Position numbers and translations under genes: made by a program. This document shows, one piece after another, positions 15,428-18,377 of a DNA stretch of 45,918 nt. Under the pieces are notes generated by a model that worked only from the letters and a program-made list of their open reading frames with translations, searched no databases and had not been told where the DNA came from. The DNA lies in the NCBI GenBank assembly GCA_030826765.1, contig JAUUDM010000021.1, forward strand, positions 1 to 45,918, in the 5' to 3' direction. Source of the DNA: Nautiliales bacterium. GTDB lineage: Bacteria > Campylobacterota > Campylobacteria > Campylobacterales > JAADDX01. Position 1 is the stretch's first letter; each line of letters opens with the position of its first letter.

Positions 15428-15448
15428 AAGCCAAAAAGGCTTTAAGCT
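15417..15448 (-). terminator. Terminator hairpin between feoB and mobA
   Basis: AAAGCC (15427-15432) and GGCTTT (15438-15443) form a 6-bp stem around AAAAA, with outer AGCTTA/TAAGCT pairing. On the minus strand it is followed by T-rich sequence, including a T6 run, suiting termination of the feo operon. The + strand side has no T-run, so use by mobA is less likely. Confidence 0.6.
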
Positions 15449-17448
15449 AAGATATGATAAGCGATAAATGCCATTATCCAAGCAAAAACATTCGGATAAA
15501 TTGTATAGAATGTTCTCCACGCCCACTGAGGAACTTCTGCATAAAATGTCCCCATAGCAGCTAAACAAGGAGAATAGAACATCACAATTATTATCATCGC
15601 TACTGCTGTTGCGAATGAAACTTGTTTTTTTATTGTAGTGCTAAGTTTTTCATCATCAGAATGATATAAAACTGCCATAGTTGAAACTACTGTCTCTTTT
15701 GCAGCAAATCCTGAAAGTAATGCAACTGTCTCTTTCCATCCCATTCCAATAGGTTTAAAAATTGGCTCAATTGTTTTACCAATATCAGCTAAATAACTAT
15801 GTTCTAAAATATAACTTTGTTGATTTTCTGGTGCTATTTTTTCTAACTCTTTTTGATTAACTGGATAACTACTTAAAAACCATATAGTAAATGCAGCAAC
15901 GGCAATAAATGTTCCCGCTTTTTTAAGATACATTTTTGTTTTAATCCATAAATCAAATAAAATTCCTTTAATTGAAGGGAATCTATATTTTGGCATTTCC
16001 ATTACAAATGGTTCAGGCTCACCCTTAAAAAGTGTCATTCTTAAAACTTTTGCAACAATAAGTCCCATTAAAGCACCACCAACATAAATAGCAAACATTA
16101 CATTTCCTTGCACTTCTGGTGCAAAAAATGCTCCAACTAAAAGCACATAAATAGGAAGTCTTGCTCCACAACTCATAAATCCTAAAACTAACATAGTTAT
16201 TAGTCTATCTTTTGGATTTTTAAGAGTTCTTGCTGCCATATAAGCGGGAACTGTACATCCAAATCCACTAACTAACGGCACGAAACTTTTTCCTTGAAGT
16301 CCAAAATGTTTCAAAACTCCATCCATAACATAACTTGCTCTTGCCATATAACCAGTTTGTTCAAGTAAATTAATTCCTAAAAATAGAATTAAGATATTTG
16401 GTAAAAACATAACAACTGCGTCAATTGCTGGAATAACACCTTCAACTAAGGCATTTTTTACAAATCCTTCTGGAAGTAATCCACCTACCCAGTCACCAAA
16501 TGCTCCAAATCCAGCGTCAATATAATCCATAGGAATATTTCCTAAAACAAATGTTGTTTGAAAAACAACCCACATAAAAAACAAAAATATAGGAAATCCT
16601 AAAATTGGATGAATTAAAATATTATCAATTTTTTCTGTTAAAGTCTCTTTTTTTGCTGTTTTTGATACCTGTTTTGATACACCTTTTGCAAGAGCATATC
16701 TCTCATCTGCAAAAACTGTTTTTGTATCATCTTCATTTGCTTCAATTTTCAGATTATTTTTTATCTCTTTTAATTTTGGCATAAGTTCCACATACCAAGG
16801 CTTTTCGTGAACAATTTTATAAATATCTTCATCTTCTTCAAGTAATCTAATTGCTACAAATCTTTTATCAAATTTTTCACATTTTATGAATTCAATCAAA
16901 TCTACTATCGCTTCTTCTACAAATTCACTATATTGAATATTTGGCAGTTTTTTATTTTCATAAGTATCAATTACTGCATTAAAAAGTTCTTCTAAACCAA
17001 ATTTTTCTTTTGCAGATACATTTACTGCATTTATATTTGTTAAAATTGAAAATTTTTTAGCATCTATTTCACCACCATTTTTACTAACCTCATCATACAT
17101 ATTAAATGCGCATACCATTGGTTTATTCATATCAGCCACACTAAAACTAAAAGCTAAACCTCTCTCAAGTTGATTTGCATCTAATACATTTAAAATAACA
17201 TCATACTCTTCTTCAAGTAGATATTTTTTAGATACTTCTTCTTCTGGTGTATAAGTATTAAATGAATAAAATCCTGGTAAATCTATGATTTTAAGGTGAT
17301 AATCCCCTCTTTTAAATTCAACCTCTTTTTTATCTACAGTAACTCCAGAAAAGTTACCCACGTGTAAAGTCGCGCCTGAAATTGAATTAATTAAATGACT
17401 TTTCCCAACGTTTGGTTGACCAACTAAGGCTATTTTTATCTCTTTCAT
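15442..17448 (-). CDS. feoB: Ferrous iron transporter FeoB
   Basis: GTP-dependent Fe(II) transporter of the inner membrane, 668 residues (shorter than the ~770 of E. coli FeoB). The N-terminal G domain has GQPNVGKS, VTVDKKE, DLPGFYSF and NMYDE. A helical linker (~170-270) leads to a polytopic membrane core with two Gate regions. The conserved Cys of GFGCTVPAYMAARTL and the SCGARLPIYV and PCLAAMGTF motifs are present. Its ATG overlaps the upstream FeoA-fusion gene by 4 bases, so expression is coupled to it. A terminator hairpin overlaps the stop. Confidence 0.96.
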   Translation of the reverse strand: MKEIKIALVGQPNVGKSHLINSISGATLHVGNFSGVTVDKKEVEFKRGDYHLKIIDLPGFYSFNTYTPEEEVSKKYLLEEEYDVILNVLDANQLERGLAFSFSVADMNKPMVCAFNMYDEVSKNGGEIDAKKFSILTNINAVNVSAKEKFGLEELFNAVIDTYENKKLPNIQYSEFVEEAIVDLIEFIKCEKFDKRFVAIRLLEEDEDIYKIVHEKPWYVELMPKLKEIKNNLKIEANEDDTKTVFADERYALAKGVSKQVSKTAKKETLTEKIDNILIHPILGFPIFLFFMWVVFQTTFVLGNIPMDYIDAGFGAFGDWVGGLLPEGFVKNALVEGVIPAIDAVVMFLPNILILFLGINLLEQTGYMARASYVMDGVLKHFGLQGKSFVPLVSGFGCTVPAYMAARTLKNPKDRLITMLVLGFMSCGARLPIYVLLVGAFFAPEVQGNVMFAIYVGGALMGLIVAKVLRMTLFKGEPEPFVMEMPKYRFPSIKGILFDLWIKTKMYLKKAGTFIAVAAFTIWFLSSYPVNQKELEKIAPENQQSYILEHSYLADIGKTIEPIFKPIGMGWKETVALLSGFAAKETVVSTMAVLYHSDDEKLSTTIKKQVSFATAVAMIIIVMFYSPCLAAMGTFYAEVPQWAWRTFYTIYPNVFAWIMAFIAYHILA

Positions 17449-18200
17449 TGTTTTACCTCCACTAATATCATTTTTGCTTCATCTTCTCTCAGTGCTATTC
17501 TACTTTTATTTACTTCCACTTCAAAAGTATTTTTTGCTATTGTATGTTTTAAAAGTTTTATCTTCTCACCCTTTACAATTCCAAGAGAATAAAGTCTACT
17601 TTTTAAAGGCTCGGTAGCAATTATTTTTTTTATAACTCCCTCTTGTCCTATCTTCATCTCGCTTACATTCATTTTTACTCCTTTTGTAAAAAGTAATCTT
17701 TCTACTTTTTTACCATTTTTTATTTCAATAAGCTCTACACTTACATCAATTCTTTCTAAATCTTGTAATGATGGTAATATTACCTTTTTTTTCAAGTCAT
17801 AATATCTATCATATTTATCTACAATCCCAAGTTTTCTTTTTAACTCTTGGGGAGTTATTTCAAATGGTAAATTTTGAAATAACTCATAAAATTGCGGACT
17901 ATAATGATGTTTTAATCTTGATATTCTCACAATACCACTATTTGGCTTAAATTTTTCTACCAAAATTTCTTTTACAAATCTATTTATTCCAACTTCAATA
18001 ATTTCATCATCAAATTTTGCCCAATTAATCCAATGCGTTTTTATATTTTGTGTTGTTATTATCTTAGTTAAAAGCTCATTAACACCATTTTTTTCACTAA
18101 TCGGTAAATTGTAGCTTTTTGCTTCTGGTTCTTTTTGGACTAAATAAGCAAGCTTTGATAATAAAAATATATTTTCTTGTATATTCAATACTTCTTTCAT
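17445..18200 (-). CDS. Fusion of a Rep_3 (RepB)-like winged-helix region with a C-terminal FeoA domain
   Basis: 251 residues in two parts. Residues ~176-249 are a FeoA (SH3-like) domain: MKIGQEGVIKKI, RLYSLGIVKGEKI and a closing IALREDEAKMILVE. Residues ~40-175 resemble plasmid replication initiators of the Rep_3 family. HWINWAKFDDEIIEVGINRFV fits the end of the first winged helix. SPQFYELFQN...EITPQELKRKLGI...YYDLKKKVILPSLQDLERI and KNGKKVERLLF fit the second. Standard FeoA is only ~75-85 residues. The neighbouring feoB (4-base overlap) confirms an iron role; the winged-helix part suggests DNA binding, probably to the three inverted repeats upstream. The regulatory role is inference. The ribosome site AAAAAGG lies inside the nearest repeat. 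Confidence 0.75.
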   Translation of the reverse strand: MKEVLNIQENIFLLSKLAYLVQKEPEAKSYNLPISEKNGVNELLTKIITTQNIKTHWINWAKFDDEIIEVGINRFVKEILVEKFKPNSGIVRISRLKHHYSPQFYELFQNLPFEITPQELKRKLGIVDKYDRYYDLKKKVILPSLQDLERIDVSVELIEIKNGKKVERLLFTKGVKMNVSEMKIGQEGVIKKIIATEPLKSRLYSLGIVKGEKIKLLKHTIAKNTFEVEVNKSRIALREDEAKMILVEVKQ

Positions 18201-18202
18201 TT

Positions 18203-18224
18203 ACGACCTTTTTATTTAAGTCGT
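18203..18224. promoter_or_regulatory. Inverted repeat 1, ACGAC-N12-GTCGT (start and RBS region of the feo operon)
   Basis: Perfect 5-base arms (18203-18207 and 18220-18224) with a 12-base A/T spacer. It begins three bases before the start codon at 18200, contains the AAAGG ribosome site and reaches the predicted transcription start. A protein bound here would block initiation; the RNA could also fold. Part of a set of three with the same arm sequence and spacer length. Confidence 0.7.
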
Positions 18225-18226
18225 TA

Positions 18227-18235
18227 ATTATAACA
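18227..18235 (-). promoter_or_regulatory. Extended -10 promoter of the feo operon
   Basis: On the minus strand TGT-TATAAT (TATAAT at 18227-18232) gives a predicted start near 18220, inside inverted repeat 1, and a leader of only about 20 bases. Confidence 0.6.
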
Positions 18236-18282: not shown

Positions 18283-18304
18283 ACGACTTATATTCTTTTG
18301 TCGT
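18283..18304. promoter_or_regulatory. Inverted repeat 2, ACGAC-N12-GTCGT
   Basis: Second copy with identical arms (18283-18287, 18300-18304) and the same 12-base spacer length, centred 80 bases from copy 1 and upstream of the predicted feo promoter. Confidence 0.7.
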
Positions 18305-18344
18305 TGAATTTTAACCAAAAAAAATAGAATTGTCAATAGAAGTG

Positions 18345-18366
18345 ACGACTTTTTTATGCTTGTCGT
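18345..18366. promoter_or_regulatory. Inverted repeat 3, ACGAC-N12-GTCGT
   Basis: Third copy (arms 18345-18349 and 18362-18366, 12-base spacer), centred 62 bases from copy 2. All three copies lie in the 212-base gap between the feo operon and the Pal-like gene; the rest of the gap is A/T-rich without an open frame. Confidence 0.7.
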
Positions 18367-18377
18367 TAAATACTACC

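Follow-up and report, generated by a model that had tools for sequence, protein, structure and literature searches.

A Rep3 Initiator Fragment Fused to FeoA Is Probably a Home-Made Regulator of Iron Uptake in Bacteria That Have Lost Fur

The window analyzed here, a stretch of 45,918 nt from a Nautiliales bacterium (GCA_030826765.1, contig JAUUDM010000021.1), contains a gene whose product joins a fragment of a Rep3-type plasmid replication initiator to a FeoA domain and that is followed by feoB. A second fusion of the same kind was found in a Campylobacterota bacterium belonging to the same family but to another genus (MAG contig JAADDX010000028.1). Judging from the sequences and a structural model, we consider it reasonably probable that the Rep3 fragment was co-opted as a one-component, DNA-binding autoregulator of feo, with the FeoA domain coupling it to the state of iron or of FeoB. 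The fusion is thus probably a home-made regulator of iron uptake in bacteria that have lost Fur. The features of the coding region are as follows.

17445..18200, minus strand: Rep3-FeoA fusion gene, 251 aa (Pfam, structural model and second genome)
17871..18095, minus strand: shortened WH1 (Rep3_N-like), about residues 36-110 (sub-threshold Pfam match, profile-profile comparison and model)
17679..17870, minus strand: WH2 (Rep3_C), a DNA-binding winged helix, about residues 111-174 (Pfam and model)
17457..17672, minus strand: FeoA domain, residues 177-248 (Pfam and Foldseek)
15442..17448, minus strand: feoB, 668 aa (its ortholog also lies 3' of the second fusion)

A preliminary description of this DNA, made from the sequence alone, had proposed a 251-residue protein with a C-terminal FeoA domain, overlapping feoB by four bases. 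Both statements were borne out: Pfam placed a complete FeoA domain at residues 177-248 (E=6e-18), and the shared bases are ATGA. A TAA codon lies in frame immediately 5' of the fusion ATG, which indicates that the short N-terminus is real. The same gene order was found in the second genome, and in each of the two genomes the FeoA domain of the fusion was the only FeoA match. The complete FeoA domain followed by feoB is what is found in FeoAB systems; however, ordinary FeoA proteins are smaller than 10 kDa and have no DNA-binding domain (PMC8749426), while the fusion has one. One Feo survey mentions a FeoA with an additional domain, and a limited literature search found no described fusion of FeoA and a replication initiator. 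FeoC, another small Feo protein with a supposed part in regulating uptake, is encoded downstream of feoAB (PMC8749426); the Pfam scan of the fusion protein gave no match to FeoC.

The residues preceding the FeoA domain had been likened by eye to the Rep_3 initiators. The similarity proved real, although the family named at the time, PF01051, stayed under its cut-off. Rep3_C (PF21205, the WH2 domain) matched residues 119-172 with E=2.8e-10 and 40.7 bits (cut-off 21.1), whereas Rep3_N (PF01051, the WH1 domain) matched residues 37-108 only when the N-terminal part was searched in isolation, with E=0.0014 and 19.5 bits (cut-off 22.4). The latter match spans just the second half of the profile, and alignments with Rep proteins lack the N-terminal part of WH1; a complete WH1 was not found, and this shortening explains the sub-threshold score. 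The fusion also matched the PHROG replication-initiation family phrog_4402 (E=3.7e-9), and a profile of the two fusions matched a plasmid Rep profile over residues 35-172 with 98.1% probability (E=1.2e-13). When solved structures were searched with the sequence of the Rep part, no significant match came up.

The structure was predicted with AlphaFold2 from an alignment of 14 sequences, the two fusions and twelve Rep proteins from viral contigs. The latter came from a scan of the viral contigs with a Rep alignment, which detected 14 Rep loci (12 were used); scanning the same contigs with single Rep proteins had detected nothing. An earlier model built from only the sequences of two proteins had low confidence in its Rep part, with a mean pLDDT of 59.5. 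The final model had a mean pLDDT of 85.6 but a pTM of 0.58, so that the individual domain folds can be trusted, but not how the domains are arranged with respect to one another. It consists of a reduced WH1, a complete WH2 and a FeoA barrel. Within WH2, helices were predicted at residues 117-124 and 133-149 and wing strands at 155-173, with pLDDT of about 87-95. WH1 is the dimerization domain in Rep proteins, and its shortening makes dimer formation by the fusion uncertain. Foldseek matched the model to the FeoA structures 7r7b/3e19 (TM 0.91 by target length) and, as the preliminary description would have it, to RepE, including dimeric RepE on its operator (2z9o). With Rep3_C significant and the predicted fold matching RepE on operator DNA, the reading of the domains stood. 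The fusion thus shares WH2, by sequence and by predicted fold, with Rep3 initiators such as RepE of F, RepA of pPS10 and pi of R6K.

DtxR-type regulators were listed by Foldseek as well, but whole-chain superposition was poor (TM about 0.3) and these matches were read as shared domain types only. The architecture is nonetheless alike: DtxR, IdeR and MntR have an N-terminal DNA-binding winged helix, a C-terminal FeoA/SH3-like domain and a role in metal transport, and PgMntR is an MntR with twin FeoA domains (PMC4805248). In contrast, the DNA-binding domain of the fusion is of the Rep3 type, unrelated to the DtxR helix-turn-helix, and neither the DtxR DNA-binding domain nor the DtxR metal-binding and dimerization domain was detected in it. 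Membership in the DtxR family was rejected, as Pfam gave only Rep3_C and FeoA.

The 212-bp region upstream of the fusion gene contains three perfect 22-bp palindromes of the form ACGAC-N12-GTCGT, which had not been noticed in the preliminary description; no such palindrome occurred in 100 shuffles of the window. They and the neighboring promoter-like elements are listed below.

18203..18224, no strand: operator 1, ACGAC-N12-GTCGT, against the start codon, starting 2 nt after TATAAT
18227..18235, minus strand: extended -10 TGTTATAAT just before operator 1, read from the sequence
18283..18304, no strand: operator 2, ACGAC-N12-GTCGT, starting 3 nt after TAAAAT
18308..18336, minus strand: sigma-70-like promoter TTGACA-17-TAAAAT between operators 3 and 2, 11/12 matches
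18345..18366, no strand: operator 3, ACGAC-N12-GTCGT, starting 3 nt after TAGTAT
18370..18375, minus strand: -10-like TAGTAT before operator 3, read from the sequence

Promoter-like matches overall were no commoner here than in shuffles, and the promoters are for this reason putative. If they are used, palindromes that start, on the coding strand, 2-3 nt past -10-like hexamers would occupy the position of a repressor, where initiation would be blocked. Operator-like sites are therefore present in the fusion's own promoter, as an autoregulator would have them. This is also the arrangement of known initiators: RepE autoregulates by binding, as a dimer, to inverted repeats that lie between its promoter and its open reading frame (PMC13028717), and RepA of pPS10 binds an operator inverted repeat, regulating its own gene (PMC4857107). 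The earlier proposal that the protein could act on the feo promoter gained independent support from these three perfect palindromes, one of which is conserved in place in the other fusion genome.

In the mechanism that we propose, a plasmid Rep3-type initiator would have been joined to the organism's only detected FeoA with its WH1 trimmed and its WH2 retained, keeping operator-binding autoregulation and losing its role in replication. The fusion would bind ACGAC-N12/13-GTCGT over the transcription start and repress its own feoA-feoB operon. Its FeoA domain would continue to serve FeoB and most likely make DNA binding depend on iron, whether through direct binding of Fe(II) or because the fusion would be held at the membrane by FeoB. 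FeoA and FeoB interact in studied species (PMC8749426).

The three sites can also be aligned as 46-nt direct repeats, Rep3 proteins bind iterons, and a separate small contig of the same genome carries an ordinary Rep3 initiator; the region could on these grounds be an iteron-bearing plasmid origin that has become integrated and that is, or until recently was, able to replicate. We regard this as very improbable. The palindromes are spaced 80 and 62 bp apart, which is not iteron-like, and each is a palindrome in itself; an iteron-like array was not found, nor was a DnaA box of the form tried near the fusion. WH1 is trimmed, the neighboring genes are chromosomal, and in the second genome the fusion gene, its operator and feoB have stayed together amid other surrounding genes. 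An integrated origin was rejected on the basis of the spacing, the palindromes and the neighbors. The protein itself is unlikely to function in the initiation of replication, because WH1 is shortened, no iteron-like array accompanies it and the gene is in a chromosomal operon with feoB. These differences from the Rep3 initiators are completed by the C-terminal FeoA domain.

The second fusion protein is 68% identical to the first over residues 2-248 and is likewise followed by feoB. An assembly or frame artefact was rejected, since the same fusion was found in another genus. In the second genome, ACGAC-N13-GTCGT takes the place of operator 1: it follows TACAAT by 3 nt and abuts the start codon of the fusion gene. 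The WH2 domains of the two fusions are 72% identical, and dN was 0.25 against a saturated dS, which indicates by sequence comparison that the Rep part is under purifying selection. Synonymous divergence differed along the operon: dS was 1.7-2.7 in the Rep part and about 1 in FeoA and FeoB, despite their being in one operon.

The fusion is the putative binder of the palindromes, but the genome encodes other regulators, such as a PerR-like protein and CRP-type proteins. Another regulator might then bind the sites and the Rep part might be a remnant or a structural tail of FeoA, a reading to which we give only a small chance. The sites and the fusion co-occur in both genomes, and the motif was missing from 27 of the 28 feoA loci of relatives without the fusion; the remaining locus (L022) has two matches, and the one that was read is inside feoB. 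The intact WH2, which is under purifying selection, speaks against another binder too, as does the promoter, which gave no match to the forms of Fur-like and PerR-like boxes that were tried.

The fusion has a narrow distribution. Its family is represented by exactly two genomes among those examined, and both have it. When the Rep part was used to survey 398 Campylobacterota genomes, no other close match appeared, and the three weak matches did not look like fusions; searching genome contigs and viral contigs with it turned up no additional fusion either. Beyond Campylobacterota the search was a pattern scan, which finds only close relatives. A probable plasmid contig of the window's genome (C2; L035, 7058 bp) encodes an ordinary Rep3 initiator and is closest to Nitratiruptor and Nitrosophilus plasmids.

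Scanning the 1.51-Mb genome of the window for perfect arms with spacers of 10-18 nt gave four sites, the three in the promoter and a fourth, ACGAC-N13-GTCGT, at C22:38696-38718 (L034:1501-1523); with 12- or 13-nt spacers, no site with exactly one mismatch was found in this genome. The fourth site begins 4 nt after TATACT and is about 90 bp upstream of a gene for a 273-aa protein (L034:589-1410). This protein is only weakly rubrerythrin/ferritin in Pfam, but its family profile matches the Bacterioferritin structure 9viw over nearly its full length (E=1.4e-18); the family was present in 26 of 60 relatives. A regulon link to this bacterioferritin-like gene is suggestive only, because there is a single site, chance could yield about one perfect site in this genome over these spacers, and no palindrome accompanies the ortholog of the second genome. 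Thirteen further sites were checked against reading frames, 12 with 1-2 mismatches and a perfect N12 site of the second genome (C26:2590). The latter falls inside an open reading frame; in all, 10 of the 13 were in frames longer than 100 aa, one was in a frame of 81 aa, and two were intergenic with no link to iron.

Fur has the job that we propose for the fusion, iron control of feo, but it is an unrelated protein that binds an unrelated site. In H. pylori, feoB carries Fur boxes, and a feo operon under Fur/NikR control has been inferred to be ancestral in Campylobacterota (PMC10353542). Fur-family proteins were present in all 60 surveyed genomes of relatives, the window's own included. A tree of 40 Fur-family proteins from this survey resolved two clades, one of Fur and one PerR-like, and the sole protein from each fusion genome was placed in the latter; the one in the window's genome is encoded next to a gene that by sequence is peroxiredoxin-like (L167:1636-2820). 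Both fusion genomes thus appear to lack canonical Fur. The window's genome is 99.7% complete and the second 90%, so that the absence is firm in the former and likely in the latter. Of the three relatives in group f15, two (G015 and G047) are likewise devoid of a Fur-clade protein; they have a separate FeoA and no fusion, so that the loss of Fur may have come first. Matches to the DtxR profile were weak in the group: the ones that were read at G015, G001 and G047 lie in proteins of CRP-type appearance, and the strongest in the window's genome lies in a 438-aa protein that does not look DtxR-like.

Regulation might alternatively be confined to the gene itself, the Rep3 part being an autorepressor that senses no iron and holds the protein level constant, in the manner of initiator autoregulation, while FeoA does only its normal job with FeoB. 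Rep3 initiators are autorepressors by ancestry (PMC13028717), the operators are in the gene's own promoter, and the fusion protein contains no cysteine and no visible metal-binding site or cluster. The site upstream of the bacterioferritin-like gene and the missing canonical Fur, however, point to a wider role in iron, and we consider a non-sensing autorepressor unlikely, though less so than another binder. The lack of cysteine and of an obvious metal site does count against the iron-coupled autoregulator that we favor, as do the shortened WH1, the occurrence of the fusion in just two genomes, the siteless bacterioferritin-like ortholog of the second genome, and G015 and G047, which manage with neither a Fur-clade protein nor the fusion. 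It would also be unusual for one repressor to act alike on uptake and storage genes. More tentatively, at clearly less than even chances, the domesticated Rep3-FeoA may have taken over from Fur as an iron regulator of the lineage. It would then control feo as well as, in the organism of the window, an iron-storage-like protein, and its FeoA domain would read iron directly or through FeoB.

If this reading is correct, a winged helix and a FeoA-type domain have been joined into a metal regulator at least twice, once in DtxR and once from a plasmid initiator. DNA binding by the fusion would then report the state of its FeoA domain, giving a direct handle on what FeoA senses. It would also mean that a lineage can lose Fur and re-wire its iron control with a part derived from a plasmid.
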